Shown here: in pieces, positions 1-22,329 of the stretch | Layout of the letters: the number at the start of each line of letters is the position of its first letter | Position numbering within the stretch: the first letter of the stretch is position 1 | Position numbers and translations under genes: made by a program | Virus record (IMG/VR): IMGVR_UViG_3300037237_000077 | Span: 1 to 22,329 of that record | Direction: 5' to 3' (one strand) | DNA: 22,329 nt | Origin: a virus | Notes under the pieces: generated by a model | Told to the model about the DNA's origin: nothing | The model's input: only the letters and a program-made list of their open reading frames with translations | Databases searched by the model: none

Positions 1-2684
1 GCAGCCATATTCGTTAGCACATTTACATAGGGAGTCCACGGAGTAGAAGTAGCACCTGTGCCAGTGCGTGGCCAGCAAGCATCAGTATAGCCGCTGGCAA
101 ACGTTCCGTACCAGTCGTTCTGTAAGCCTTCGTGGATAAACGGCCCCGCTCCAGGTCCCCAGTGTTGTTGAGCGAAGGGGAGTAAATTAGTCCAATTTCC
201 ATTAGCTAAACATGCGTACTGCCCAGAACCCTGCTGCCCAGTTGGACTACTCTCGCCGCCTTCCTGAAAGTCCTTCGGCCCCGTGTACTGCTGGAAGATA
301 GCAAAGATATCGCCACACGTGGGTTGGCCTGTCAGGTAATTCGTAAGGTCGCTGATGTTGACACAGGTTGTTCTTAGCCCAACTCCATTAGCGAAGTGAA
401 CTGCAGCCTCCTTGTCTGCGAGGTCACAGTTATTCCCGCCGCTGGGCGTACGCGTGTTCCCGACGCAATTCACGTTGCCCATCGGAACGATCGGAGCAGG
501 GAAAGCCGTAGCAATCGTGGCGTCTTGCGTCGCATTCATGCTGACCCAAGAAGTCTCCAAAGCCTCAACCGTCCCGCCCGGTACTAGCGCCTGCTGCTGG
601 GCCGAGCACTGCGGGAAGTTCTCGCCACCCTTCTGGTAGCCAAACACGAAACTAAAAATCGATCCGTGATAGCTTGCAGCCTTTAGGTGTGCGATGACTG
701 CGGCGATGAAGATATTCCATCGCGTTGCGGCCTCGGTATTGAACATCACAGGCACGCCACTATGGTTTGTACTCGCTGCAACACAGGTATTCGTTGGAGG
801 GCTGCTATTTCCGGTATAGCTCGAACAGAAGCATGTGTTCTGACCCACTGTATTCAGCACATAGTCTGGTGTAAATATGTTTGGCGATAGATCAGATGCT
901 GGAGCAAAGACTGGTTCCATCAAGGCATTTGGATACGCCGCGAGCATCACGCCAATTTCATTGTCCAAGGCCGTCCACGAGTAAAGTCCGGCTGTCGTAT
1001 TGCTTTCAATCGTGTTCCAACCTACAGTGAATACAAACAACTTGAGTCCACCATTTACAGCAGCTGTTAAATTCGTGCTTGCGCCTGTCGTGGGCGTTGG
1101 GTACATGCCCTGTGTCACATTCTGAAACGATACGGATGCTGTATATGGGTAAGCACCGATGTCCCAGTTACCGGAAGCAAGACGGTGTGTGCAAGCTCCA
1201 TTACAGCCATAGTTGGAACCGAAGTTAGCTGGAGCCCCTGTAAGTAGCCCAACAATTCCCAAGCTTGTGAGGTTCACACCGGCACCAATGGCAGAGCTCC
1301 CTGGACTGAGCATGTACTTTCCGGTCAGACTCGGGTTAGTGATAGTGGTATGCGCGTCTTGGCTTGTCCCAGAGCGCCATGCAGCCAGCGTGTTGCAGGT
1401 ATGATTGCAGCCGGAAGGATAGATCGCGATACCGTTTCCACCGCCGTTGCCAGTCTGCGTGATGTTGTACCAATCGTTGTAGTCACTGGCTGATACAGTT
1501 CCAGCAGCGTAGTTAACTGCAATCTCGCAGTTCCGAATGATGTTGTTCTTTACAACTCCGCCCGTCGATCCAGTGTCATTGTTGACTTGGATTGCTCCAT
1601 TCGCTCCGATGCTGTTGCAGTCAATCATATTGTTTACGATTGTCGAGCCGCCGCCTGTGGAGATTAAACCATTGCCGTTATAGTCTATAGTTCGACCCTG
1701 CACAATCAGATTGTTGTAAATCTGGCACTTAACTGTGCCGCCGTTGCCTTGTGTGAAGATGAATGCTGTTGCAGCCGAGCCACTGTCGCCATGAAATTTG
1801 TTGCTATAAATCTGGCAATTCGTAATCGGAGTTGTCCCGCTGTTGGTGTAAGCGAAGGTGCCATCGTGGTGATCTCCGCTAGCATCCCAATTCGAAAATG
1901 AGTAGATGTCATTGAATGCGATTGTTTCTTGATCGCAGAGCGCTGTCCCTGATCCATTCCCGCCAACCCCAATGCCCCAATTAATATTATAGATTTTGTT
2001 CTTAGTGAATGTATCGAGGACTGTCGTCGTGCCGCAGTTGTCCATGATCCCAGTGTTCGTATCATGGATCGTGTTGCCGGATACTGTGATGTGATCATGC
2101 GCACCACTGAGATAAATAGCTACGTCCCAATTCGTCGAAATGTCTGTGCAAGTCGTGGCATTCGTGACCACACACAGATTTGAAATGGTGAAGTTTTCAA
2201 CTGTGACATTGCTTGCACCAATGACAGCAACGGCAGTGCTAGATGTGTGATTCGCAAGTGTCGAGCCGTTGGCTGTATTTTGGATCGTGGCATTCGTTCC
2301 ATTGAAGGTGATATATGCGTGACCGTTATCAATAATCGCGCCAGCTGTATTCCCGCCATAGCCCCAGACTGGGCTCGTGAACACTGTTCCAAAGTCGAAC
2401 GTGACTAGAATGGGGCTGCCGCTTGATCCGCCGCCCTGAGCACTGAGCATCGTACTGCCTGTGGTGCCTGTAAACGTGCCGCAGACCAGAACTTGGGTTC
2501 CGTTACCAATCTTGCCTGTCGTGTTTCCCCAGTTCGTCGATGTGTTGAACTGAGTAGGCGTAAGGATGGTGACTGAGCCTCCGGTACAGTTACCAGTAGC
2601 TGTACCAGCGGGAGTGACCTGAATATTAGCCACCTGCCCGAAAACTGCAAGCGAAAGAATGAGAATAACTAGAAAATATTTCAT
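1..2684 (-). CDS. Secreted-type beta-helix plus TIM-barrel-like protein, 3' truncated at the window edge
   Basis: I read this frame codon by codon and found no stop from the ATG at 2684 to position 3, giving 894 residues with the C-terminus beyond the left edge. Residues 1-17 (MKYFLVILILSLAVFGQ) look like a Sec signal peptide. Residues about 20-515 resemble a right-handed parallel beta-helix with NTIHDTNTGIMDNCG, NKIYNINWGIGVGGNG, NNLIVQGRTIDYNG and NNMIDCNSIGANGAI rungs, as in pectate-lyase-like proteins. Residues about 520 onward resemble a glycoside hydrolase barrel: GGLKLFVFTVGWNTIES, then LYSWTALDNEIGVMLAAYPN, FSFVFGYQKGGENFPQC and FIHEGLQNDWYGTF. Cys pairs are frequent (GCNHTC, YGCNGAC). 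The start directly follows the fibre stop, with no clear ribosome binding site. It could be a tailspike or an exported depolymerase. Confidence 0.7.
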   Translation of the reverse strand, partial: MKYFLVILILSLAVFGQVANIQVTPAGTATGNCTGGSVTILTPTQFNTSTNWGNTTGKIGNGTQVLVCGTFTGTTGSTMLSAQGGGSSGSPILVTFDFGTVFTSPVWGYGGNTAGAIIDNGHAYITFNGTNATIQNTANGSTLANHTSSTAVAVIGASNVTVENFTISNLCVVTNATTCTDISTNWDVAIYLSGAHDHITVSGNTIHDTNTGIMDNCGTTTVLDTFTKNKIYNINWGIGVGGNGSGTALCDQETIAFNDIYSFSNWDASGDHHDGTFAYTNSGTTPITNCQIYSNKFHGDSGSAATAFIFTQGNGGTVKCQIYNNLIVQGRTIDYNGNGLISTGGGSTIVNNMIDCNSIGANGAIQVNNDTGSTGGVVKNNIIRNCEIAVNYAAGTVSASDYNDWYNITQTGNGGGNGIAIYPSGCNHTCNTLAAWRSGTSQDAHTTITNPSLTGKYMLSPGSSAIGAGVNLTSLGIVGLLTGAPANFGSNYGCNGACTHRLASGNWDIGAYPYTASVSFQNVTQGMYPTPTTGASTNLTAAVNGGLKLFVFTVGWNTIESNTTAGLYSWTALDNEIGVMLAAYPNALMEPVFAPASDLSPNIFTPDYVLNTVGQNTCFCSSYTGNSSPPTNTCVAASTNHSGVPVMFNTEAATRWNIFIAAVIAHLKAASYHGSIFSFVFGYQKGGENFPQCSAQQQALVPGGTVEALETSWVSMNATQDATIATAFPAPIVPMGNVNCVGNTRTPSGGNNCDLADKEAAVHFANGVGLRTTCVNISDLTNYLTGQPTCGDIFAIFQQYTGPKDFQEGGESSPTGQQGSGQYACLANGNWTNLLPFAQQHWGPGAGPFIHEGLQNDWYGTFASGYTDACWPRTGTGATSTPWTPYVNVLTNMA

Positions 2685-5600
2685 TTAATTAGATGTGCAA
2701 AGGATATCGTAAGTTAAACCAGAAGTCGCCACATGGGTAATTGTGATCTGATTCGTTGTTTTGGCGGACACGTAACTCGTGGAGTAATTTGTCGCTGCCA
2801 AAGCATTCGTTGGGCTGAACTGGCAGTGCCCGCTCGAAGTCATCCCAGTCACCGTGACAGTATTGCTGGTGGCTGCAGTTGTTGTTAATGATGCGACGAT
2901 CGGAATATTTGCAGTTCCGACAGGTAGAGAAGGAAGAATCTGAAGATTCTGCTCTGACCCTGCGCTAAAGGTAGGCGCTGATCCATACCCAGTTCCGCCA
3001 AAGTCAATTACGATTCCGCCAGTAGCCGCAGGGATTTCGTTCGGATAAGTTCCCGTCATGACAAAGTGACATTGTGCAGGAGTCGTCGGGGATCCGCCAG
3101 AAGCCGAGCATGGTGGTGCATTCGCATAGCCCAATGAACTTGATGCAGTGCCTTGGCTGTAGCTTGTTGTGCTCGTGACGACGCCGGAGGTTAGCACGCC
3201 TGTCGCACTCGGTCCCGTTGCGACTATCGTTGTCTGCCAAATACCAGCAGCAGGTGCATTCGGGACGACCGTACTGAATCCGCTTGATACGTTCTCGGGT
3301 TGCTGCCAGCCAAATCCGTTCGTAATCGGCTGCTGCGCGAGGCCTTGACTACCACCGATTAAACCACCGCCAGGCCCCGAAGATGTTAGACTATTCGCTT
3401 GGAAGCCATTGCTTCCGCCATAATTTCCAGTGTTACTGACATCTGTGAAGTTGCTGGCTGTAATATTTCCACCACTAGTTTCTGAGGTCAGCGCTCCAGT
3501 TGTAGGCGTGGACAAATGCAGACTGGCTACAGTCGCGACTCCCGCAGTCGTCACAGTCGTATCGCCGGAAATTGTTTGAGGAATGTATGCAGTAGCCCCA
3601 GAGTTCATCACAGGGAATTGTGCCGAGGTTCCAAGAACAGGACCGCTCCCAGCGTTCGCAAGTACGAACGCATCAGTCGCGAGCAAGGTAGAGTTGTCGC
3701 CGCCTGTTTGCGTTGTTCCGGTCACGCCATTCGGAAGGGCTGGAGTGCCTGAGAGGTTTGCAGCCGTTCCCGTAGTATTTTGGTTTAAAGTAGCAACTCG
3801 TGCAGCAGCTAATGTGCCGCTCGTGATATTCGTCGCAACAGTAGTATCAGTGGTCGCACTAGCCGCCAGCCCGCTCACGTCAGCAGCAGCAGGTTGGGAC
3901 TGAAGTGGTACTCCAGAGTTGCTGATAGAGTAAATCCAGGTATGGGTCAGCGAAGGAATTGACTCGATGCCTCCGAGCGTCGTGGTGCTGGGAACTGGTA
4001 GTCGCGCGGCAGGGAGAGTTCCGCTCGAAATATTCGTCGCTACTGTGGCATCTACAGAGCAACTAGAAACGGAGTTGCTCAAATCTCCGCAAGTAGGCTG
4101 CGCTTGGTGCGGCAGGCCGGACGTATCGATATAAGTAATCCAATTATGAGCTGCGCTCGTAATGGAGTTCACGCCGCCGATTGCGCCCGCGCTCGCAGCA
4201 TTCAAATTGTGGATGACATTATTCGATGATTGAACTGCTGTGATGCCTGTACCGCTGATGATGTTCGGGGTAGTGATGACAGAGCCACCATTCACCGTCA
4301 ATGTACTACCGCCTGCATTTGCTAGGACGAACGCGTCTGTGGCGAGCTTCGTGGTGTTGTCGCCCGTGGTCTGAGTCGTGGCCGTCGTACCGCTCGGCAG
4401 CGCCGGCGTACCTGAAAGATTAGAAGCCGTGCCAGTCGTACTTTGATTGAGCGTTGGGAAGTCCGCTGCAACAGCGATGCTGGGCACTCCCGAGGTGGTC
4501 GTGTTCTTTAAAATGCCTGTCGCTAAGCTACTGAGAATCGTTCCATTCAACCCTTTGATTATCAATACACCGCCAGAGCTAAACGTTCCATCGCCACTCA
4601 TGGCAACACTCTGGATGGTAGTACTTGAGGCCCATAGAGCTATCTGGCCGCTGGTAATTGTGCCTGAGTAGGAAACATTGCCCCCGCCTGCGGGCGTGCC
4701 GCAGTTGGCTCCCCCTGAAACAGTCACGCCCGTTGCGAACTGCCCCCCAGGACACTGACTTGGAGTTGCTGCAAGAGCCGTTGCCGTACCAGCTAGACCT
4801 GTCGTACTTTGGTTCAATGTTGGGATGTCTGATGCAAGGACTGCTCGCCACAACCCGACACCACTCGCGCCATTCGGCGCAGCGTAGAAAAACTTCGCCG
4901 TCTGGGTTCCAGACAGGCCGACAGCAGTACCGGTCGTACTTTGATTCAGGGTCGGGATTCTGGCTGCTGCCAAGGTTCCGGTTGTGATGTTCCCGGCATT
5001 GGTCGTGTCGATGGTCGCAGAATTTGCCAAACCGTTACTGCCTGCAACTAAAGTTCCAAGACTTGCTCGTGGGATAGGGAAAGTAATTCCAGAGTCTCCG
5101 AGGGTTCGGCCATTTACGCCTACAAAAACAGGAATACCGTTATTCGTGCTTACGCTAGGCCCACTGACATTCCCCGCATTTGTACCGTATCCTTGAGCAT
5201 TCACCCATGCAGTGTTCGCAATCTTGCTCGAACTATCGACAGTGGGAGGTGTTGGAGACGTTGGTGTACCTGTCAGGTTCGGACTTGCCAAGGGTGCATA
5301 GGCTTGTCCTTTCACGAATGCGTCTGTGGCAATCGCAGTAGAGCTATCAGTCAATAACTGAGTAGGTGCATTCGGCGTGCCTGTAAGCGAAGGATTCAAA
5401 ATTGGCGCTCGTAGTGTCAATGCTGTGGAGAGGTCTGTTTGATTCGTTATATCCCCTGTAATTCCTCCCCATGCAGCACTTCCTCCCGTGCCCCCAGCTA
5501 CGCAGTCTGGACGGCCTCCAGCGCTATAACCCTGTACAACCTGTCCAGTGATGCAGTCTCCCGCGAAGATACCGCCGAGGGTATAGGGAGTTGGGAAGGG

Positions 5601-6056
5601 TAAGCGAGCGATCGCTACGCCAAGAATATTGGGAACATAGATATCAAAGTTGCAACTTCCGCTCGGGCACCAGTAGGATGCAGGCCCGGTACTCGCTGGT
5701 TGTACGCACTGATACCCAGACGATTGACTTCCGCCTAATACAATCTGATTTGCGGAGTTCTTGATTGTAGTACTGAAGCAGATGTTCGCGGGGTTCGTCA
5801 GAGTCGTATCGGCTACTTGGCAAGGTTGTCCGATTACGCCATTCGTCACCGTACAAATGGTGGGTCCAGTGATCTGTGAACCGCCTCCGCCAGCCTGATA
5901 GCTGATCGAGTTCCCATTGCTGTCCGTAGCTTGAAAAATGATTGTACCAGATGGTAGGAGTCCACTAGAGCCATTGTAGATGCTCGTGCTCGTGACGGGC
6001 ATAAAAGCTTGCCCGAATGCAATGTTGGAGAGTAATAGTAAAAGAAGTTTTCGCAT
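2685..6056 (-). CDS. Long repeat-rich tail fibre with signal-peptide-like N-terminus
   Basis: The product is 1123 aa from the ATG at 6056, which forms TAATG with the previous stop; an ATG at 6080 adds eight residues before MRKLLLLLLSNIAFGQAF but lies inside the previous gene. The hydrophobic start looks like a Sec signal peptide (cleavage near AFG-Q). Residues about 25-165 are a Cys-containing beta domain (ISYQAGGGGSQITG...SYWCPSGSCNFDIYV). Then come fibre repeats: two LTGTPxxPT...DSS..IA(T/N).A(F/W)V units, four TLNQxTTG units, and two long blocks ending LATDAFVLANAG. A GGI/GGV...HTWI/HNWI...QP unit also occurs twice. The last 200 residues are strand-rich. It is probably a homotrimeric fibre. 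The stop abuts the start of the last gene (TAAATG). Confidence 0.7.
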   Translation of the reverse strand: MRKLLLLLLSNIAFGQAFMPVTSTSIYNGSSGLLPSGTIIFQATDSNGNSISYQAGGGGSQITGPTICTVTNGVIGQPCQVADTTLTNPANICFSTTIKNSANQIVLGGSQSSGYQCVQPASTGPASYWCPSGSCNFDIYVPNILGVAIARLPFPTPYTLGGIFAGDCITGQVVQGYSAGGRPDCVAGGTGGSAAWGGITGDITNQTDLSTALTLRAPILNPSLTGTPNAPTQLLTDSSTAIATDAFVKGQAYAPLASPNLTGTPTSPTPPTVDSSSKIANTAWVNAQGYGTNAGNVSGPSVSTNNGIPVFVGVNGRTLGDSGITFPIPRASLGTLVAGSNGLANSATIDTTNAGNITTGTLAAARIPTLNQSTTGTAVGLSGTQTAKFFYAAPNGASGVGLWRAVLASDIPTLNQSTTGLAGTATALAATPSQCPGGQFATGVTVSGGANCGTPAGGGNVSYSGTITSGQIALWASSTTIQSVAMSGDGTFSSGGVLIIKGLNGTILSSLATGILKNTTTSGVPSIAVAADFPTLNQSTTGTASNLSGTPALPSGTTATTQTTGDNTTKLATDAFVLANAGGSTLTVNGGSVITTPNIISGTGITAVQSSNNVIHNLNAASAGAIGGVNSITSAAHNWITYIDTSGLPHQAQPTCGDLSNSVSSCSVDATVATNISSGTLPAARLPVPSTTTLGGIESIPSLTHTWIYSISNSGVPLQSQPAAADVSGLAASATTDTTVATNITSGTLAAARVATLNQNTTGTAANLSGTPALPNGVTGTTQTGGDNSTLLATDAFVLANAGSGPVLGTSAQFPVMNSGATAYIPQTISGDTTVTTAGVATVASLHLSTPTTGALTSETSGGNITASNFTDVSNTGNYGGSNGFQANSLTSSGPGGGLIGGSQGLAQQPITNGFGWQQPENVSSGFSTVVPNAPAAGIWQTTIVATGPSATGVLTSGVVTSTTSYSQGTASSSLGYANAPPCSASGGSPTTPAQCHFVMTGTYPNEIPAATGGIVIDFGGTGYGSAPTFSAGSEQNLQILPSLPVGTANIPIVASLTTTAATSNTVTVTGMTSSGHCQFSPTNALAATNYSTSYVSAKTTNQITITHVATSGLTYDILCTSN
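3650..4458 (-). repeat. Paired long repeat blocks within the long fibre gene
   Basis: Two copies of about 145 bases, near 4311-4458 and 3650-3797, encode the same block: TLNQ(S/N)TTGTA(S/A)NLSG, TPALP(S/N)G, TTQT(T/G)GDN(T/S)T, LATDAFVLANAG. Two further TLNQSTTG units without the block lie near 4801-4824 and 4932-4957. The protein match is close, but the DNA is diverged at third positions, so the duplication is old or under protein-level selection. Confidence 0.75.
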
Positions 6057-6370
6057 TATTTCAACCCCACTGCAATCCACTGGTAAGTGACACCAGAAGT
6101 GTTCAACGTAAAACCAGTCGTTGTGATGCCGGCGATGTTGACAGAACCCCCGACTCCTGTAGCCACGACGTAAGGAGCACTGCTGAATGCTTCGGGGAAG
6201 GTTACGCTAGTCCCACCCCCACTTCCGTACTGAATCAGTATTCCGCCTGCAACTCCTATGGTGTAATTTTGATTTTTAACATAGGCAGTAGTTGCTAATT
6301 TCAGTGAGCTGTCTGCTGATACTGGAGTCGGGGCAGTTGGTGTCCCGGTAAAAGTTGGGCTGTTTAGCAG
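5195..6370 (-). repeat. TGTP-type fibre repeat shared by two adjacent genes
   Basis: The motif SPxxTGTPxxPTxxxxDSSxxxAxxAxV occurs in the small fibre (about 6268-6370) and twice near the start of the long fibre (about 5300-5400 and 5195-5290). Adjacent genes sharing such units could exchange segments. The motif itself is common in phage fibres. Confidence 0.65.
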
Positions 6371-6646
6371 GGCGTAAATCGCCATGTCTGCCTGCGTCAT
6401 GATGTTGCCTAAGACCGCAGTCAGCGTGCTCAGGCTAGTATCCATCACAGTGTAGCCTTTGATGACTAAGGCTGCGGCCAAGGCTGCGACGAATGTGCTG
6501 GACTGATACCAGACCTTGTTCAACCACAGAGAAGGTAGTGCTTGATTGGTGACGATTCCACCAGTGCGTGTGGTATCCGCAGCATAGGTAGCATCGCTCT
6601 CTTGGTTCGCCTCGCCTGGATTATGCTGCAAGAAATTTGTGGACAT
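6056..6646 (-). CDS. Small tail fibre protein (gp53-like C-terminus)
   Basis: The product is 196 aa from an ATG at 6646, with GGGAG about 5 bases upstream and beginning right after the previous TAA. The N-terminal half is helical (LNKVWYQSSTFVAALAAALV). It contains SPTFTGTPTAPTPVSADSSL followed by KLATTAYVKNQNYT, a repeat shared with the next gene. The C-terminus (VTFPEAFSSAPYVVATGVGG, then GFTLNTSGVTYQWIAVG) matches the gp53-like putative fibre C-terminal domain, a trimeric receptor-binding tip. There is no signal peptide, unlike its two large neighbours. It ends in TAATG with the next gene. Confidence 0.75.
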   Translation of the reverse strand: MSTNFLQHNPGEANQESDATYAADTTRTGGIVTNQALPSLWLNKVWYQSSTFVAALAAALVIKGYTVMDTSLSTLTAVLGNIMTQADMAIYALLNSPTFTGTPTAPTPVSADSSLKLATTAYVKNQNYTIGVAGGILIQYGSGGGTSVTFPEAFSSAPYVVATGVGGSVNIAGITTTGFTLNTSGVTYQWIAVGLK

Positions 6647-6655
6647 TAGTCTCCC

Positions 6656-7510
6656 TTACGACGCGTGGCCGAGGTCTGCCCCAGCAATGTACGGACTATT
6701 AAGATCTGCTCCGAAGATTGGCAGTGTAGAGAATGTGTGAGTGTACTCGACAGTTTCAGGACGCGGAACAATCATTCCGTTCAAGATCATGTCTTGAATT
6801 AATGCTGAGAACGAGCCGGATAGGATAATCGTCGCTGTCATGTTCTGGTTGTCGATGACGTAGATTACGCCACCGGGAAACAGCTGCTGCCAACTCGTCC
6901 ACAGTGATCCAATCTGTCCATTCCACTGGTTCTGGATAATTTTTGCCTTGATCAAGATGCGGTAGTTGAAGTCATTCAGTACGGCGCTGACGCTTGCAGT
7001 AATAGGTTCACCAAAAGAGTGTGGTTTCGTAAACACAGCCACAGGATCACCAGATAAAAATTCGGTAATTACGACACTCTCTAGGTCACCCCCAGTACCT
7101 ACTTCTATACTCTGTTCCACCGACATACCTGCAATGGAAGCCGTTTGAAATACAGTAGGAGAGTTGATTGTAGTAATTGGAGTGCTCAGAGTCGTATTTA
7201 CTTGCGTCGGATTGAATGGCAGTATTCTACCAACTCCGACAATCTGTCCAAGAATATCGAGCTGCACCCCGACTGCCGCGTTGACATCGAAATAGTTGTA
7301 CATGACGCTCGCCAGAGCGCCAGCATCGATGAATGGCTGGATAAGAACTGTGAGCCACGCCTGCAAGTTGGGGGCATTCGTGCCTTTGTACTCGCTTGTG
7401 AGCAGTTGTAGGTAGTAACTACTCGGTGGCATAACGCCTGCGCCAGCCAAGCCTCCAAAAGGCCCGCTGCCAAATGCGCCGCTACCGAATGATCCAGGCG
7501 AAGTGCTCAT
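6656..7510 (-). CDS. DUF2612 baseplate/fibre-associated protein (gpI-like role)
   Basis: The product is 284 aa, ATG in an ATGA overlap with the tailspike stop. The segments YYLQLLTSEYKGTNAPNLQA, then DAGALASVMYNYFDVNAAVG and VQLDILGQIVGVGR are the DUF2612 signature, and LNDFNYRILIKAKIIQNQWN, GQIGSLWTSWQQLFPGG is its second conserved block. By position these proteins take the place of P2 gpI and help attach fibres to the baseplate. The N-terminus is Gly/Ser-rich (GSFGSGAFGSGPFGGLAGAG). The C-terminus GADLNSPYIAGADLGHAS is a short repeat. The TAA lies just before the GGGAG of the next gene. Confidence 0.8.
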   Translation of the reverse strand: MSTSPGSFGSGAFGSGPFGGLAGAGVMPPSSYYLQLLTSEYKGTNAPNLQAWLTVLIQPFIDAGALASVMYNYFDVNAAVGVQLDILGQIVGVGRILPFNPTQVNTTLSTPITTINSPTVFQTASIAGMSVEQSIEVGTGGDLESVVITEFLSGDPVAVFTKPHSFGEPITASVSAVLNDFNYRILIKAKIIQNQWNGQIGSLWTSWQQLFPGGVIYVIDNQNMTATIILSGSFSALIQDMILNGMIVPRPETVEYTHTFSTLPIFGADLNSPYIAGADLGHAS

Positions 7511-9318
7511 AAGCCGCAGTGCATGACTACTGTGTAAGTTTCGCTCGCAGCAGGGGTGAACGCCGTTCCGCCGCTCAAGGTAGCTGTGAAAGTAGTTTGG
7601 GTAGTAGACTGTGCTGTTTGTTTAAAGATGAGGTTGCCACCAGTTCCTGTCACCCCTGCTACTTGCAGGTTGCACACAGGTGCGCTCGGAAATGCTGTGG
7701 GGAAAACTATCTGTACAGTTGGAGCCGCTGCGAACGAAGCAGAACCAGAGGTAATAGCAAACTCGTTAAACTGGGTGTACTGAGTAGTCGGTCCCGCGAG
7801 AGCCGTGGACGCGCCGGTGCCCCATCCGGTCGGCAATGTGATATTTCCGATTGTCTGTGTAGCACCTTGGTTCGCGACTGAGAGGCCAGAGGTAGCGGTA
7901 CCTGACACATTAAAATTACTAACAACGTCGAACCCACTGATCGTACCGCCGCTATATGTCGCCTCAAAGCCAGCATTCCACGTGCCTGAGCGGCACGGTA
8001 TATTGTAATATCCACTTCCTTTAAATGCGACATAGGGACCACAGTAAAACTGGCCTCCAGTCCCGGAGTTAGCAATGAGAGCACTGATAGTCTGATTGGT
8101 GCCGACCTCCAATAGCATGCCAGGGTCTATGTCTATTTTAGTGGTGCTGCTATCTACCTGAAGAGCGCCGCCCGTTGTCAACGAATGCGTGACATCAGTC
8201 CAGGAGAACTCGCCTCCGGCTCCGATCTGAATCTCGGTTTGCAGACCGATGGTGTTGGCTAAAATCTGAGGGCCCGAGCATGTTTCCATGTGAACAGCGT
8301 TAAGAATTAAGTGCCCACCATTGAAAGAAATCTGCCCTGTGCCGAGGCTGTTTGGGCATCCCGAGGCATTGTTCGAGCCCCAGTAATCCATGCTGAGATG
8401 GTCAAAACTCAGCGTAGATCCGTACCCATTCGGGCAAGATACAGCCAGCCCCGTGTTGCCTCCGCCAGACGCAAAATGCGTCCCGATCCAGGCCATGTTC
8501 TCTTCGCCGGTAATCCCACTGGCGCACGTCACGCCGTTCTCAGCGTCCGAATACCCGCCCATGATCGTGCCAACCAACCATGTTTCCTGGAAAACATTAT
8601 TTCCCAACTTATACTGCGTGCCGAAATGTTGGACATCGACGTTGTAGAAAACGTCGTAAAAGTCAGAAGCGCTAGATGAAATGACTGTATTCGTCGGATC
8701 ACCACCAAGCCAAATTCCGTATGGTGTATTACTCAAACCGCTCCCGATCAAAGTTAGATTGCTGATTCCCCTGCGTGCATATGTACCTGGGTAGCTCGGG
8801 TTGAGGGATGCTGTGTTCGCAGCAATGATGGCTGGCGAGGGAAGGCTGGCTACCGTGATCACGCTGTTTTGGCCTTCGATTGTGACCCATTGAGGCTTAA
8901 TCACTGTCGTAGTTAAAGCGTAAGTGCCTGTGACTATGGCGCACACGCCGGGCTGGGTTGGCGAATATGTGGCAATGCAAGCGTTCAACTGGCTGCCGAT
9001 ATCGCCAGCGCCCCACGCTGTTGTTCCGGTTCCCACGAAACGAACGGAATTAACATTAGAACTGGTTACAGAAGCAGCATTAAGTGTTGAGCCTGTTCCC
9101 GTAACTGAGAGAATTCCGGTCGTCAGTAATCCATTAATTGTTAAATTTGGTAATGATGTAGTGCCGCTCAATAAGTTATCAAGAGAGTAAAAATTGTAGT
9201 CGATCAGCGGCCCCCACGTGTTGATGTTTCCACCGGGCAGTGGAACATTGAAATTCAAGTTCGGCGTAATCTGTGCGCACGCCATACCGCAGAGAAGAAT
9301 TAATATCAGTTTTCTCAT
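7507..9318 (-). CDS. Tailspike/fibre with signal-peptide-like N-terminus and beta-helix
   Basis: The product is 603 aa, starting in an ATGA overlap with the J gene, so the start is secure. The first 17 residues (MRKLILILLCGMACAQI) look like a Sec signal peptide with an ACA-Q cleavage site. Residues about 20-52 (NLNFNVPLPGGNINTWGPLI, then DYNFYSLDNLLSG) are a phage-fibre N-terminal motif. From about residue 100, GAGDIGSQLNACIATYSPTQ and the following strands resemble a pectate-lyase-type parallel beta-helix running to about residue 400. The C-terminus has FPTAFPSAPVCNLQVAGVTG, seen in receptor-binding ends of fibres. It could act as a depolymerase or receptor binder; I do not see a catalytic pair I can name. 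The signal peptide is unusual for a virion protein. Confidence 0.7.
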   Translation of the reverse strand: MRKLILILLCGMACAQITPNLNFNVPLPGGNINTWGPLIDYNFYSLDNLLSGTTSLPNLTINGLLTTGILSVTGTGSTLNAASVTSSNVNSVRFVGTGTTAWGAGDIGSQLNACIATYSPTQPGVCAIVTGTYALTTTVIKPQWVTIEGQNSVITVASLPSPAIIAANTASLNPSYPGTYARRGISNLTLIGSGLSNTPYGIWLGGDPTNTVISSSASDFYDVFYNVDVQHFGTQYKLGNNVFQETWLVGTIMGGYSDAENGVTCASGITGEENMAWIGTHFASGGGNTGLAVSCPNGYGSTLSFDHLSMDYWGSNNASGCPNSLGTGQISFNGGHLILNAVHMETCSGPQILANTIGLQTEIQIGAGGEFSWTDVTHSLTTGGALQVDSSTTKIDIDPGMLLEVGTNQTISALIANSGTGGQFYCGPYVAFKGSGYYNIPCRSGTWNAGFEATYSGGTISGFDVVSNFNVSGTATSGLSVANQGATQTIGNITLPTGWGTGASTALAGPTTQYTQFNEFAITSGSASFAAAPTVQIVFPTAFPSAPVCNLQVAGVTGTGGNLIFKQTAQSTTQTTFTATLSGGTAFTPAASETYTVVMHCGL

Positions 9319-10547
9319 ATTGAGTTCACCACAACGTTCGCCGTCACCCCTTCAGATACTTGATAAAAGTCCAGCGCCAAATCCGCCGTCGTCGTGAACG
9401 AGCCGCCACTGAGCGACAGGTAAAGAGTTCCTATGCGAACGATCGGTAAAGATGGATTCGTGTTCACCGACATTGCTATGTACATCAGCGAAGACCAATT
9501 CACGCTCTCTCCAATCTGAAGGCTGTTGAGATATGCGACCAGAGCACTTTGAATTGCAGTGATCGTGGCGGCAGTTCCCCCGGCCAAAAGATGAGCGTTG
9601 ACGATCACATGAATCGCGGTTTCGGTTGGACGTGCGAAGTTAATCGGAATCGTGATTCCAGAGTTCGGATCCGTCACGCTTACCGTGACCAACGTGCCGC
9701 CTGTGCTGCCGTTCGTATTTGGTCCAATGCCTCGGTTATTGTAAATAGCTGTTGCCACAGCTAAGTTTGTTCCACCTTCCACCACGCAGCTCAAGGAGTG
9801 AGCAGGATTGCCCCAGTCATCAGTTCCGCCTGTGAAGTTTTCAATGCTAGTAGTTCCTTGAGACGAGAGTGTGGTTCCATTGTTGATGCGAGTCACGCCA
9901 GGCACTGCTAAGATACTGGCGATAGTTCCAGCCAACAGCGTCTCAGAAGGAAGCTCAGTGCTGATCGCCTGTCTAGTGCGAAGTTGCGAATCAGTTTCAA
10001 TAGGTTCGCCTACATTTGGTAGATTGCTACCATTCGATACGCTCGTCCACCCTCCAACAGCCGTGCTAATGACTGTGATTTGATTCGCACCAACTGTGAT
10101 AGCCCCAGTCTGCTGTGCTGTGGCTGTCGTGTTTATCAGTCCACCGCCGCCGATGGTCACTGACGCAGGAAGATTCCAGAGATTACCATTTATATCTGCG
10201 ACTATGCCACCTACGATGATCGTTCCCACTACTCCGCCCAATGTCACAGTACAAGTAGAATTAGTCGCTGGAAGGCGTGTCATCCCATTTAGTGCAACAA
10301 TGGCATCGAGCGCGGATCTGATCGCAGTCGTAGGTGAAAACGCATTGTACGCCAACTGAAGGCAGTTCAGGTAGTCAGCTGCCGCAAGCGCCCAAATTGC
10401 CAAAAATTGCTCGTCCGCAGCACTGTTGTCTAGATTTACAGATTGTCCATAGGTCGATAGAAAATTAGATGTGTAGTACGCAAGGATGTCGTTGTAGCTG
10501 GGAATCGACAATCCAGCTGGACCGATACTTGGCGGTAAGTAGCTCAT
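9315..10547 (-). CDS. Baseplate J-like wedge protein
   Basis: The product is 410 aa from an ATG at 10547. Features of the baseplate J family are clear: an N-terminal helical segment (YNDILAYYTSNFLSTYGQSV, then NLDNSAADEQFLAIWALAAA), a beta domain beginning RLPATNSTCTVTLGGVVGTI, the EPIETDSQLRTRQAIST motif, VPGVTRINNGTTLSSQGTTS, and the SLSCVVEGGTNLAVATAIYN-RGIGPNTNGS segment typical of J proteins. Six or more copies form the ring around the hub to which fibres attach. The stop overlaps the next gene as ATGA. Everything from here to the left edge is adhesin-like apart from the DUF2612 gene. Confidence 0.85.
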   Translation of the reverse strand: MSYLPPSIGPAGLSIPSYNDILAYYTSNFLSTYGQSVNLDNSAADEQFLAIWALAAADYLNCLQLAYNAFSPTTAIRSALDAIVALNGMTRLPATNSTCTVTLGGVVGTIIVGGIVADINGNLWNLPASVTIGGGGLINTTATAQQTGAITVGANQITVISTAVGGWTSVSNGSNLPNVGEPIETDSQLRTRQAISTELPSETLLAGTIASILAVPGVTRINNGTTLSSQGTTSIENFTGGTDDWGNPAHSLSCVVEGGTNLAVATAIYNNRGIGPNTNGSTGGTLVTVSVTDPNSGITIPINFARPTETAIHVIVNAHLLAGGTAATITAIQSALVAYLNSLQIGESVNWSSLMYIAMSVNTNPSLPIVRIGTLYLSLSGGSFTTTADLALDFYQVSEGVTANVVVNSI

Positions 10548-10548
10548 T

Positions 10549-10944
10549 TTAAGTCAATGCCCCAGATGGCGGTTGAGGATAATTCGACAGCACCATCGTC
10601 CCAAATTGCGTGCTGATCTGTGCAGAGTATGTGAACTGCCGCGTGATCGAATTGAATCCAGTTTGCACATTGTTGACCGTGATGATAAATGGTGAGCCTA
10701 AAATACGCTGCGTAATCAGCACTGCGATTTGCTCTTGAGATGAGGTGCTAGCTGATTGTCCGAGGATACTCTGCCACAGTGGAAGCCCGTCAAGAGTATT
10801 AGCCCACCACTCACCCTGAAACATTTGTAGTCTGCAAAGGACGATCTGCGCCACGGCTGCTTGATCAGAGATATAGTTATCTTGGCCAGCGCCCCAGAGA
10901 GGATCATTGTTCGGACCAAGTTGGCGGACTGTGATGACGCTCAT
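10549..10944 (-). CDS. Baseplate wedge protein, gpW/gp25-like
   Basis: The product is 131 aa, starting in an ATGA overlap with the spike stop. The pattern NYISDQAAVAQIVLCRLQMF, then QGEWWANTLDGLPLWQSILG, then SSQEQIAVLITQRILGSPFI is the signature of small gp25/DUF2634-type wedge proteins, which lock sheath, tube and J-like wedges together and start contraction. The C-terminus FTYSAQISTQFGTMVLSNYP is a beta hairpin as expected. It is followed after one base by the gpJ-like gene, the usual partner. Confidence 0.8.
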   Translation of the reverse strand: MSVITVRQLGPNNDPLWGAGQDNYISDQAAVAQIVLCRLQMFQGEWWANTLDGLPLWQSILGQSASTSSQEQIAVLITQRILGSPFIITVNNVQTGFNSITRQFTYSAQISTQFGTMVLSNYPQPPSGALT

Positions 10945-11621
10945 ACCGGTGGCCCAGAAATACCAGTTCCGACTGTGATCCCATTGTGCTCGTGAGTCGA
11001 AAAAACTTTCCCTCCAAGGGTCGTAGCACCTGAGACAGTGAGCGTGCCATTGATGCTGACAGGCCCATTTAGATCAATGATGGTGGACGCAATAATCCGC
11101 ACTGTACCGTTCGCATCAAGCTCGACAACGCTAGTGCCATCATCAGTTCGTATCTGTAAAGTACTAGGCGAGTAGTTGGGAATTATTCGACTGGCTTGAG
11201 AGCATAAACCAAAGATCGCAATGCCGTCTGATAACGAATGTCGTCGCTGAATTCCTTGCGTGTTGCTCGTCCCGCCTGCTGACCACCAGCCATCGATGCA
11301 GTAGTCTGAGAACACGACAAGGCATTCATCTCCGACTGCAATGGGTAGAGTGATCGAAAACCCACCTCCACGGTACACGGCGATCGGCACATCTCCAAGA
11401 GGTTTGATTGCCGTAGGAGTTGGAACACCCTTCAGCATCGGATTTTCCATGATCGCCACTTGTACGGTTACCGTCTGATTCGACGCCACTTTTGAGATAT
11501 CGGTCACGATACAGGGAATCGAGCATCGCAAGTCCGCTGCAAATTGCCAAAACTGCTCGTAAATCGCAGCCTGCGGTACACCGAGCAGAGTAAGTAAGTT
11601 GACGAATCCTGGAGAACTCAT
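10941..11621 (-). CDS. Baseplate spike (gp138/gpV-like, OB fold plus iron-tip motif)
   Basis: The product is 226 aa from an ATG at 11621 that makes an ATGA overlap with the hub stop. An upstream ATG at 11639 would add six residues but overlaps the hub gene more, so I do not prefer it. Residues about 32-140 form the Gp138 N-terminal OB-like domain: RCSIPCIVTDISKVASNQTV, VPIAVYRGGGFSITLPIAVG, DECLVVFSDYCIDGWW and RRHSLSDGIAIFGL. Residues about 155-205 are a short repeated beta-helical stalk (VSINGTLTVSGATTLGGKV). The end FSTHEHNGITVGTGISGPPV carries a His-x-His (210, 212), the metal-binding tip of membrane-piercing spikes such as P2 gpV. Three copies would sit below the hub. Confidence 0.85.
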   Translation of the reverse strand: MSSPGFVNLLTLLGVPQAAIYEQFWQFAADLRCSIPCIVTDISKVASNQTVTVQVAIMENPMLKGVPTPTAIKPLGDVPIAVYRGGGFSITLPIAVGDECLVVFSDYCIDGWWSAGGTSNTQGIQRRHSLSDGIAIFGLCSQASRIIPNYSPSTLQIRTDDGTSVVELDANGTVRIIASTIIDLNGPVSINGTLTVSGATTLGGKVFSTHEHNGITVGTGISGPPV

Positions 11622-12691
11622 TGGCTTGTTCCGGTCCACTGCTGGGCCATCACTAAGCCCTCAGAAGTGAGTGCGAGTTTATCCTTCGCCAACAATGCAC
11701 CCGTCACGTCCACGTACCATTCTTGTCCACGTGTGTCGCCAGTGAACTTTGCCCCGATAATTGCATAGATGCCATCCTGCGAAAGGATTCCAGGCAAGAC
11801 TCCGAGTTGGCGAATGTACTGCCTGACCTGAGAATTTTGAATGGAGATACACTTCATCGGCTTCGTAACTTCGATGTTCGGATTTAGCAGGAGCCTGCAG
11901 TTCACTCCAAACTGCGTCTGCTGTGGAGTTCCGACGATCACAGCATTCGCCTCAGGGTTGTTTCCCGGCATACAGACAATTGGATTCTTGGCATTTACCG
12001 TGATGTCGGAGTCATCCACCTTGCCTACATTTAATAAGCCTTTACCTTGAAGCCAGAAGCTCATGCCGTTGTCCCGCGAAATATCTCGTAAGTGCTGTTT
12101 CGGCGTTCCAAAGAAGGTTTGCGATCGAGCCGCAGTCTTAGTAAGAGTGGTTGAAATCGTTCCCACTGAAATTGGATGGAATGAGTTTTTGGCGATAGTC
12201 TGAACTATCTGCTCTTGCGTGTAAAGAAGAGCTGCAAAACTTTCATTGATCAGATTCTGGTCGAGATTCACTAGCGACACGACGCAATTCAGCGTAATCT
12301 TGAAGTCAACCTGATTTTCTCGCTCGAACAATGGCTGTAAGACAAAACCGTTGAAGATCTCTCCATAGGCTCCATTTTGATATCCAGCCGAAAGGATGAC
12401 TTGCATATTTTGCGTAATCGGCGGAGCTGCTGTGCCTACTGTAGGTGCCGGAGGAGTGTTGCCAGAGCGGCCCTGTGTGACAATGAACTCCGTTACCTGC
12501 TCATTCATATTATAAATACAGATATTGGCGAACCACCAACCTTGCCACGCGTGTGTCTCGATATCAAATGTCACCCGCAATGACTCAGCATTGTTATTTG
12601 GATCAGGCAGCGTAATTAGTGTCTGTCCGCCGCTATCAGCTGGGCCGATGATTTGGAGTTGCCACTTTCGCAGAAATAGATTATCGCTCAC
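11618..12691 (-). CDS. Baseplate hub protein (gp27 / Pam3 gp19-like)
   Basis: The product is 357 aa from a GTG at 12691 that overlaps the previous TGA as GTGA. A TTG at 12706 would add five residues but lies deeper in the upstream gene, so I prefer the GTG. The sequence SDNLFLRKWQLQIIGPADSG, then LRVTFDIETHAWQGWWFANI, CIYNMNEQ, and IFNGFVLQPLFERENQVDFK is the layered beta-barrel text of phage hub proteins. FFGTPKQHLRDISRDNGMSF is the helix that precedes the second barrel. Three copies would form the base of the tube and carry the spike. Length and position agree with Pam3-like hubs. The stop overlaps the spike start as ATGA. Confidence 0.8.
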   Translation of the reverse strand: MSDNLFLRKWQLQIIGPADSGGQTLITLPDPNNNAESLRVTFDIETHAWQGWWFANICIYNMNEQVTEFIVTQGRSGNTPPAPTVGTAAPPITQNMQVILSAGYQNGAYGEIFNGFVLQPLFERENQVDFKITLNCVVSLVNLDQNLINESFAALLYTQEQIVQTIAKNSFHPISVGTISTTLTKTAARSQTFFGTPKQHLRDISRDNGMSFWLQGKGLLNVGKVDDSDITVNAKNPIVCMPGNNPEANAVIVGTPQQTQFGVNCRLLLNPNIEVTKPMKCISIQNSQVRQYIRQLGVLPGILSQDGIYAIIGAKFTGDTRGQEWYVDVTGALLAKDKLALTSEGLVMAQQWTGTSQ

Positions 12692-19713: not shown

Positions 19714-22329
19714 TTAGATTGTACTTGCCGGTGGAGCAATGTGCTGAATTGGCGTCAAGGGCACCGCCCCACAATCTACCGCTATCCCACCACTACCTTG
19801 CACGCATCCAGCCGTGCCACCTGCCCATGCACTAGGATCAAGCATAATCATGCCCTCGCGTATCCACGCATTGAGCAGACCGGCAGCGTAGGTGTGCGGA
19901 GATGGGCAGGACGGGAATAACAACCCAGCACACTGGCTATCGTAGGTCGTATTCGCCAGCACAGCCGTCTGCATCCACGCGAAGTATGCTTCTTCCCAGA
20001 AGGGGGCGGAGCCTTCATAGGGATTACTGGCGTCGAAGGCTAGTACTGGAAGGTTAGTAGCTGCGGTCGTGAAACTTTGCAAGGCTCGGAAGTACATCGT
20101 CCGGCCCCCGTAAACAGATGGATCAGAGTATGGGTATACCTGCCCCGCCGTCACAGTTACTCCAGTATTCGTTGAAGATAGCACCGTAGCCTGAGCACCG
20201 TAACAGGCTGACAGGGACGCAGTGCTGGCACAGTATGAATTCATAATGCCTTCAGGGAAGGCATATTCAACATCGAAAAATGGGATTGACCGATTCGTCT
20301 CCACCATTATCGGAAACCGATTATAGGAGTGGTCCGTACCAAGCGTGCCGATATAATTCAAGCCCGTGAACTGCTGCCAGTAATTTTGATAGTTGAATGC
20401 AGCATTCCCTCCGAGATAAGTAATATACGTTGAACTAGCCCCACAACTCGCGCCTGCCTCGAACTCAGCGATACTATTCCCGGAAGTCACAGTCTGCGTA
20501 CCGCTTCCTGCGCTTCCTGCCGTCACTGTTGTCGAAGTTCCTGGAGTAGCGGATACTTCAAATTGGCTTCCTGACAGACCCTCGGCAACTACATAATAAA
20601 TAGTACTGGTGGAGAAATTCGTAGGCAAAGACCCAGTCGTATAGAACTGCACAGACTGGCCTACTACAAAAGAGTTGGTCGCACTGATGACTGCGGAACT
20701 ATTGGTAAATGTAGAACTAATCGGCGCAGAAACCGGAACTGCGTTTGCCCAAAGGTTTGAGTCAACAGAAGGCACCGTCCCCGAGGGCGCATCCGTGGTA
20801 TGACACGCCAGTGCGCCTGATGCAAAGTTCTTTCCGCTATCACCTAGTGTGGCATTAGGAGCGGCGCTAAAAACAGTATTTGCGCGAAACAAAATTGACA
20901 AGGACGTGCCGATTGTTGGATCAATGACTCCGCAAAGAGGCCACGCCGTACCATAGCCGTTGTATCCTGGCAGGTCGACGTTCCCAGTGCAGGTATATGA
21001 ATTTGTCCTACCTCCAGTCCCGCCTATCGTCGTAGCGAACTCTGCAAGGAAGGGGGATGAACTACCCAATCCGCCCATTACGTTATTTTTCACGCTATAA
21101 CTGGTCGCGGTATTACCGATCGTCGTATTGAGGAATTTACAAAGTACGAAGTGCGTATTGCTAGCTGTAGAATTAGCAACTAGATCTGCCCAACAAAGGC
21201 TATTACTCAAGTTAGGCGGCAAGATTGAGTAGTAGTTTGGAGGCGTATTGCCTGTTACCCAGAAATTCTGATCGATAAAAATCTGATCGTAAGAACCGCC
21301 GTCTGGATTGAGAAAACCGCCCCCAGCGCACGTTGCACCAGCACAAGATGCGTAGCCGTTATAAAGGAAAGCATTTTTCCATACCACACTACCGTCGTTA
21401 GCATTAGAGAACGCATTAACTGGACCATCAGCCACCAGCCCAGTAATTGAATAGCTACCGGCGCCTTGGTTAGCCCCTGATCCACCTAGACGCAAACATC
21501 CAGATAAAGATGAGCCAGATGTCGCAGTACATCCGAGCAAACTTAATCCATTGATGATGATGTTGTTCGCGTCAGTCGTGGACGTGATCGAAAATTGCAC
21601 ATTGCCGCTATTGGTGAAAGTAACATTCGTCCACGTTGCCCCACCGTTGGCCGTAGTCGTACCAGAAGAGTAACAGTAAGCAACGGGTACGGTGCCGTTC
21701 GTGGTCCCGCCAATGCTCTTGAAGTCAACGTAGGTGAATGTTCCGTATCCAACATTAGCTGGGCATAACGATCCAGTCACAAAGTTTATAGCTCCAGAGA
21801 GACAGGAGCCGGCAGTCGTACAAGCTCCCGATTTCCGCGTTGAGGCGTAATAGGAATCGCCCTGCCAAGTGATGTGCGACCCAGACGTGCCGACCATCGA
21901 ATAGGAACTGGCACCAGATGTTCCGTCCAGCCATACCCATGTGTAGGCGGCAGTGGTAGGCGCCCCGGCCCATGAGGAATCGTGTTGAATCGTGCAGCCA
22001 GCCCCGGCAGTCATAATATTCGCTTGGCCTGTAGCAGAATTCACCGGACCCGAGTAGATAATTGTGCTGGAATTAGAACAGGTCAGACCACCTCCACCTA
22101 CCCCCGTCACGGAAATGGCGTAGGTAGTTTGATTGGCTGGGGAATTCCCTGCCGAACACGTCTCGGGTGAAGAAATTCCACAAGTCACTGTGAAGGTTGA
22201 AGGGATGACAACTTGGTCCCCTAAACTTGTCGTATCGGTACTGCCAGGATATGTAACGTGAATGCCCAATGCCGCAGACGTCCCCCAAGTCGTTGCAGCA
22301 GTCCACTCACCGCTCTGCACAGCAGTAAA
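19714..22329 (-). CDS. Large beta-helix-like surface/adhesin protein, 5' truncated at the window edge
   Basis: The frame is open from the right edge to a TAA at 19716-19714, giving 871 residues with the true N-terminus missing. The first in-frame GTG (22320) lies inside a conserved-looking stretch, FTAVQSGEWTAATTWG, a typical early motif of parallel beta-helix proteins (QSGxW...TWG followed by GDxVxI-like text), so it is probably not the start. The middle is rich in Gly, Ser, Thr and Asn, with short beta-strand-like units. Around 20725-20475 there is a domain of the FTNxSxVISATxxFVxGQSVxFYTTG...YYVVA...FEVSATPG type that recurs in phage structural proteins. The last 200 or so residues are richer in aromatic and charged residues (FWEEAYFAWMQT). 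Many Cys pairs are present, for example SGACTTAGSC and YASCAGATCAG. The stop abuts the terminator start (TAAATG). It could be a head or neck fibre, a tailspike or a secreted protein. I do not recognise a specific family. Confidence 0.6.
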   Translation of the reverse strand, partial: FTAVQSGEWTAATTWGTSAALGIHVTYPGSTDTTSLGDQVVIPSTFTVTCGISSPETCSAGNSPANQTTYAISVTGVGGGGLTCSNSSTIIYSGPVNSATGQANIMTAGAGCTIQHDSSWAGAPTTAAYTWVWLDGTSGASSYSMVGTSGSHITWQGDSYYASTRKSGACTTAGSCLSGAINFVTGSLCPANVGYGTFTYVDFKSIGGTTNGTVPVAYCYSSGTTTANGGATWTNVTFTNSGNVQFSITSTTDANNIIINGLSLLGCTATSGSSLSGCLRLGGSGANQGAGSYSITGLVADGPVNAFSNANDGSVVWKNAFLYNGYASCAGATCAGGGFLNPDGGSYDQIFIDQNFWVTGNTPPNYYSILPPNLSNSLCWADLVANSTASNTHFVLCKFLNTTIGNTATSYSVKNNVMGGLGSSSPFLAEFATTIGGTGGRTNSYTCTGNVDLPGYNGYGTAWPLCGVIDPTIGTSLSILFRANTVFSAAPNATLGDSGKNFASGALACHTTDAPSGTVPSVDSNLWANAVPVSAPISSTFTNSSAVISATNSFVVGQSVQFYTTGSLPTNFSTSTIYYVVAEGLSGSQFEVSATPGTSTTVTAGSAGSGTQTVTSGNSIAEFEAGASCGASSTYITYLGGNAAFNYQNYWQQFTGLNYIGTLGTDHSYNRFPIMVETNRSIPFFDVEYAFPEGIMNSYCASTASLSACYGAQATVLSSTNTGVTVTAGQVYPYSDPSVYGGRTMYFRALQSFTTAATNLPVLAFDASNPYEGSAPFWEEAYFAWMQTAVLANTTYDSQCAGLLFPSCPSPHTYAAGLLNAWIREGMIMLDPSAWAGGTAGCVQGSGGIAVDCGAVPLTPIQHIAPPASTI

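Follow-up and report, generated by a model that had tools for sequence, protein, structure and literature searches.

A contractile-tail phage encodes, among its tail genes, three fibre or spike proteins that are predicted to carry Sec leaders, and such leaders recur across a family of related phage fibres. We propose that these leadered proteins are virion fibres that are exported, disulfide-bonded, and docked on the tail at lysis, and we put the probability of this reading at roughly 0.6. In tailed phages, folding and attachment of the tail fibres are assumed to take place in the reducing cytoplasm. If our proposal is true, then in a large group of soil phages the tail fibres seem to be made outside the cytoplasm, and phage assembly, lysis timing, and superinfection would have to be rethought. 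It would also explain the disulfide-rich fibres, which would be useful in acidic soil, and it would give a simple sequence signal for the receptor-binding proteins of uncultured Acidobacteriota phages. Our searches of the open-access PMC literature, most of them directed at leadered or exported tail fibres, turned up no paper that treats tail fibres with Sec leaders as a class among tailed phages; the nearest precedents are exported endolysins and exported bacterial fibres.

Leaders among the tail genes of the window

The tail genes in the window (the whole virus record that we analysed, 22,329 bp) belong to a contractile-tail phage and are all encoded on the minus strand. Their order is sheath, tube, tape measure (with a transglycosylase domain), plug, baseplate J, a DUF2612 tail protein, and then fibres. 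Neither the baseplate J-like wedge protein (9315..10547) nor the DUF2612 tail protein (6656..7510, no cysteines) has a leader, and a leadered 603-aa protein sits between them. Its predicted leader (MRKLILILLCGMACA, followed by Gln; 9274..9318) precedes a mature protein (7507..9273) whose N-terminus carries the fibre motif TPNLNFNVP..W..N.NF..LD, and leadered homologues of the same N-terminus are found at L008:1781, at L064:899, and in Tunturi_2 gp13. Beyond the DUF2612 protein is a small tail fibre (196 aa; 6056..6646) with a Gp53-like C-terminus and matches to several tail fibre PHROGs. As a preliminary description of this DNA had stated, this small fibre is leaderless; it also has no cysteines.

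The 1123-aa fibre follows the small fibre. It consists of a predicted leader (MRKLLLLLLSNIAFG, followed by Gln; 6012..6056), an N-terminal domain with three cysteine pairs (5606..6011), and a shaft and distal part with phage tail-fibre repeats (2685..5605; PHROG tail fibre families 22682, 7032, and 4209). The 894+-aa protein comes next, with a leader predicted from the scan described below and from its start junction (MKYFLVILILSLAVFG, followed by Gln; 2637..2684) and a mature part that is cut off by the contig edge (3..2636). The 1123-aa protein is assigned as a tail fibre by its PHROG match and its slot, while the 603-aa and 894-aa proteins are assigned by position and motif only, as neither has a Pfam or PHROG match. 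The 603-aa protein and an 871+-aa protein at the right edge had no relatives among viral contigs, annotated phages searched with the 894-aa and 871-aa proteins returned no match or a single short one, and a single-sequence AF2 model of the 603-aa protein reached a pLDDT of just 37.

To score the leaders, we used a rule-based scan for Sec/signal peptidase I leaders (a positive n-region, an uncharged hydrophobic core of eight residues, and small residues at -3 and -1). The N-termini of the three proteins are as previously described, and we confirmed their start junctions (ATGA at 9318, TAATG at 6056, and TAAATG at 2684). The scan accepts the 603-aa and 894-aa leaders and narrowly rejects the 1123-aa leader, in which an Asn breaks the eight-residue core; by this rule it is the weakest leader of its family. 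Relatives of the 1123-aa protein in the same slot (L003, L008, L064, L065, L066, and L068) pass the scan. As a control, we scanned 12 head and tail-region proteins of lambda, and the only positive was the outer-membrane protein Lom.

Other accounts of these N-termini were considered and rejected. An annotation artefact is contradicted by the agreement between start junctions and relatives. The proteins are not bacterial lipoproteins, as they have no lipobox and +1 is Gln instead of Cys. A dual start with a leaderless isoform would need a start codon near the cleavage site, and the family has no conserved one. Separately, two related lipoprotein-like phage genes lie downstream of the fibres at L003:17202 and L064:10538 (LLMSGCGDWESQASS and LMAGCGDWEAQASS).

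All three window leaders have Gln at +1. Gln at +1 is typical of the phage leaders, and it is also the second commonest +1 residue among the leader-like sequences of an acidobacterial genome (16 of 59); in this the phage leaders are similar to leaders of the presumed hosts. This bears on whether the leader might stay uncleaved, as an inner-membrane signal-anchor that would hold the fibres until depolarisation in the manner of SAR endolysins. Holin-triggered release of exported phage proteins has precedent (PMC6116005), and the cleavage site is weak in some leaders. Against an anchor, leaders that have otherwise diverged still retain a small-x-small cleavage site, which Gln usually follows, and the frequency of Gln at +1 in the acidobacterial genome argues the same way. 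We consider the anchor improbable.

One further feature of the window is the plug (12688-14424), whose residues 475-576 form a Pam3-like baseplate plug and which has an extra N-terminal domain of about 470 aa that looks glycosidase-like by eye. The extra domain is absent from relatives such as L002, L003, and L065. A 722-aa homologue in L006 is directly followed by a leadered 553-aa protein.

A family of N-terminal domains behind the leader

Directly after the leader of the 1123-aa protein is a domain of about 130 aa that is absent from Pfam and PHROGs. We reached its relatives by way of relatives of the baseplate J protein: in those phages, the gene after the small fibre encodes a different leader followed by a conserved domain. 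Domain scans then found 14 and later 46 viral loci, plus one contig of a Granulicella MAG (Granulicella belongs to the Acidobacteriota), and 6 of 396 Acidobacteriota genomes contained the domain by an HMM search. A search of annotated phages with the domain gave no match. The preliminary description had proposed looking for the same leaders in related phage fibres, and related fibres are indeed leadered: the scan detects a leader at 58 of the 59 loci, and at the remaining one (L025) a leader is visible although its start is unclear, which speaks against chance. Counted as distinct relatives, 52 of 58 have a Sec leader and the other six are leaderless. The leader sequences differ while their n-, h-, and c-regions are kept.

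The domain occurs in three gene contexts. In myophages it follows the small fibre, in siphophages it lies beside the tape measure, and in a third group it sits between the portal and the prohead protease. The myophage relatives that extend as far as the gene following the small fibre (L002, L003, L008, L064, L065, L066, and L068) are all leadered there. Within the portal-prohead protease interval, L049 has four leadered fibre-like genes in a row (6995-11239), which is odd for tail fibres. Many of these phages have, after the fibre with this domain, a conserved leadered protein of about 150 aa (QSAQQTPIAYD..GGLDCVSK..), for example at L013:6877, L030:2789, L036:8031, and L039:6825. An Acidobacteriota chromosome (G250; L071 and L076-L078) has a leaderless fibre with this domain at 2.30 Mb; another copy, which looks interrupted, lies at 2.35 Mb. 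We also noticed a weak HMM match (E = 5e-5) at L075:1357 to a chromosomal protein that resembles TonB-dependent receptors and has a carboxypeptidase-regulatory-like N-terminus; this match was probably caused by similarity of the leader and strands.

An AF2 model of the domain is beta-rich and confident (pLDDT 81). Its best structural match, computed with VIA as the only aligner, is the N-terminal domain of the short tail fibre of A-1(L) (8kec_b; Z = 10.4, rmsd 1.9 over 95 residues), and the next-best match has Z = 6.6. Foldseek alone found no significant match in the PDB or BFVD, and profile searches of PDB sequences found no sequence-level match between the domain and the A-1(L) fibre. From its modelled length, chain 8kec_b would be gp33 rather than gp34. 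Residues 2-110 of gp33 form a ring that anchors the short tail fibres to the baseplate (PMC10966104), so the model suggests that our domain resembles a baseplate-docking domain. The genetic setting of gp33 is also similar, as the fibre genes of this Anabaena myophage (PDB 8KEC, PMC10966104) follow the baseplate wedge genes. Unlike the 1123-aa fibre, gp33 has no leader and no cysteine.

We also compared the domain with the N-terminal domain of the lambda side tail fibre (PF08400). Leaderless members of our family have a weak similarity to it by hhalign (probability 46%, E = 2e-4), but the full family profile has none, no family member matched PF08400 in Pfam at E up to 1, and lambda Stf has no leader.

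Other N-terminal types likewise occur with and without leaders. A second type, with the motif TPNL..NVP..W..N.NF..LD of the 603-aa protein, is leadered in the window, L008, L064, and Tunturi_2 gp13, and is leaderless in L068:5127 (in the same slot) and Tunturi_4 gp112. A third type has the motif GxPLxGGxLxTYxAGTTTP. It lacks a leader in DSL-LC05, whose recorded host is gammaproteobacterial, and in phages that infect Xanthomonas, Rhodoferax, and Vibrio. The third type has both a leader and a CxxC (GPCAGC or APCVGC) in L126, L127, and L129, and the CxxC position is GG or FG (NPLAGG or similar) in the four phages of other hosts just listed.

Cysteine pairs and loss of the leader

The preliminary description had pointed to cysteines in the 1123-aa, 894+-aa, and right-edge proteins, which we confirmed, and had overlooked that the 603-aa protein is cysteine-rich as well. 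The mature counts are 10 (603 aa), 16 (1123 aa), 24 (894+ aa, partial), and 24 (871+ aa, partial), and all are even. Judging from its 24 cysteines, the right-edge protein (19714..22329, minus strand) is probably another exported protein; its N-terminus, and with it the leader region, lies beyond the contig. More broadly, among complete phage proteins clustered at 40% identity, mature leadered proteins of at least 250 aa have even rather than odd cysteine counts by 19 to 3, versus 69 to 71 for non-leadered phage proteins, and their cysteine density is nearly twice as high.

Within the family, the cysteines form three pairs that are all-or-none among the leadered members. Of the 58 distinct domains, 10 have pair A and 48 lack it altogether. 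For pair B, 48 domains have it and 3 lack it altogether, and a broken form (Gly plus Cys) occurs in the six leaderless members only. For pair C, 46 have it and 11 lack it altogether (one truncated sequence was excluded for pairs B and C). At least one intact pair was found in 50 of 51 leadered members versus none of the six leaderless ones (Fisher P = 2e-7, with no correction for kinship). For loci retrieved with the A3 scan patterns, which include cysteines (TNPANIC and WCxxxxCN), the presence of pair C is in part imposed by the search. The cysteine-free A5 scan gave the same contrast: pair B was intact in all of its leadered finds (L085-L093 and L095) and in no leaderless one.

The leaderless members form a single clade within the leadered siphophage fibres, which corresponds to one change on the tree (support 96/72). 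They lie between tape-measure and distal-tail genes that are homologous to those of the leadered L093; for most of them, identity to L093 is about 30-33% in the tape measure and 49-61% in the distal tail. Because these flanking genes are homologous, the same slot appears to be filled with or without export. Loss of the leader thus seems to have gone together with breaking of a disulfide; as a point against our reading, this link depends on a single evolutionary event. Overall, we regard disulfide formation in the leadered fibres as well supported by these sequence patterns.

These results also bear on whether the leaders could be functionless relics of captured bacterial secreted genes, with fibres that fold in the cytoplasm. 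Their resemblance to host leaders would fit a relic. A relic should decay, though, and the leaders persist over wide divergence and in different phage types; furthermore, the cysteine pairs are tied to the presence of the leader. We give the relic explanation very little credence, and the same linkage led us to reject capture of a functionless moron.

Hosts, proposed docking at lysis, and secreted alternatives

The viruses with leadered fibres are soil viruses, and those of their hosts that could be traced are Acidobacteriota. The host of the window phage is most likely a member of the Acidobacteriota. For this very phage, we infer the host, since a search of 396 Acidobacteriota genomes with its sheath protein gave one weak match. 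Cultured phages of this phylum have a similar arrangement. The podophages Tunturi_1 and Tunturi_2, which infect Tunturiibacter psychrotolerans (Acidobacteriota), each have five leadered fibre-like proteins (gp12, gp13, gp14, gp16, and gp17), and none of their head and tail-core proteins that we tested has a leader. The siphophage Tunturi_4 has two leadered proteins, gp113 and gp114. The fibres of Tunturi_1, Tunturi_2, and Tunturi_4 are thus leadered and cysteine-rich like those of the window, but the isolation paper makes no mention of signal peptides, and its main text has no virion proteomics (PMC11924767). We found no leadered fibre in Tunturi_3 and none among nine genes examined from the first 50 kb of Tunturi_5. 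As these phages share the host genus, export is not required there. The cultured Tunturi phages and their hosts make the export model testable now.

We propose the following route for the window phage. The 603-aa, 1123-aa, and 894+-aa proteins would serve this contractile-tail phage as tail fibres or tailspikes and would be made as Sec precursors. The precursors would reach the periplasm, where signal peptidase I would cut them, usually just before Gln, and the mature fibres would fold there and form disulfide bonds. Once the envelope is opened by holin, endolysin, and spanin, virions freed from the cytoplasm would encounter the oxidised trimers, which would dock on the baseplate via the N-terminal domain. 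The family-wide leaders, the linked cysteine pairs, and the even cysteine counts strongly support export, as far as it can be predicted from sequence. Docking after lysis we infer from the identity of the domain and from the sharing of slots. Late attachment of fibres and spikes, even in vitro, is known for the long fibres of T4 and for the P22 tailspike, which makes docking at lysis feasible.

Several points count against docking. Attachment after lysis would have to be fast, and up to five leadered proteins per phage are many for one baseplate. Also, the leadered proteins with the N-terminal domain between the portal and the prohead protease (L013, L017, and L049) would equally fit an exported accessory protein. 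The main alternative use of export is that the leadered proteins are not virion parts at all and are instead depolymerases or decoys, secreted or held at the surface, that remove or cover receptors and polysaccharide while infection proceeds and so aid release and block re-adsorption or superinfection. Tunturi_2 gp14 and gp17 have beta-helix or pectate-lyase-like parts, as might be expected of depolymerases, and the number of leadered proteins per phage and the location of some of them in the head-gene region would fit this as well. There is also a bacterial parallel: the MAT fibres of Bdellovibrio (PMC10769870) have a signal peptide, a conserved beta-rich domain of about 130 aa, a phage-like trimeric fibre, and varied tips. 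However, it is a predatory bacterium that encodes those fibres and uses them on its own surface, and the likeness is one of architecture, by published description only. A secreted enzyme would have no need of N-termini of virion-docking types, and leaderless versions occupy the same tail-gene slot. We therefore consider secreted depolymerases or decoys rather unlikely.

Exported, late-docking virion fibres remain our preferred reading. Among the export options that the preliminary description had listed, fibres added late fit best, because the leaders precede virion-docking N-termini of which leaderless forms also fill the same slot; released depolymerases or decoys keep the lesser probability just given, and an uncleaved membrane anchor is disfavoured. 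Phage late proteins are sent through Sec before lysis in other systems, such as fOg44 Lys44 and the SAR endolysins (PMC6116005), but those are lysis enzymes and not virion fibres. A broader picture, on which we are evenly divided, is that tailed phages of the Acidobacteriota make heads and tails in the cytoplasm and oxidise receptor-binding fibres in the periplasm, with the two meeting at lysis, and that standard docking modules switch route by gain or loss of a leader and cysteines.

Finally, collagen-like GPQ/GPT repeats follow the leadered N-terminal domain in L015, L019, and L022. If a leadered domain means export, then by this reading these collagen-like fibres would be exported as well.
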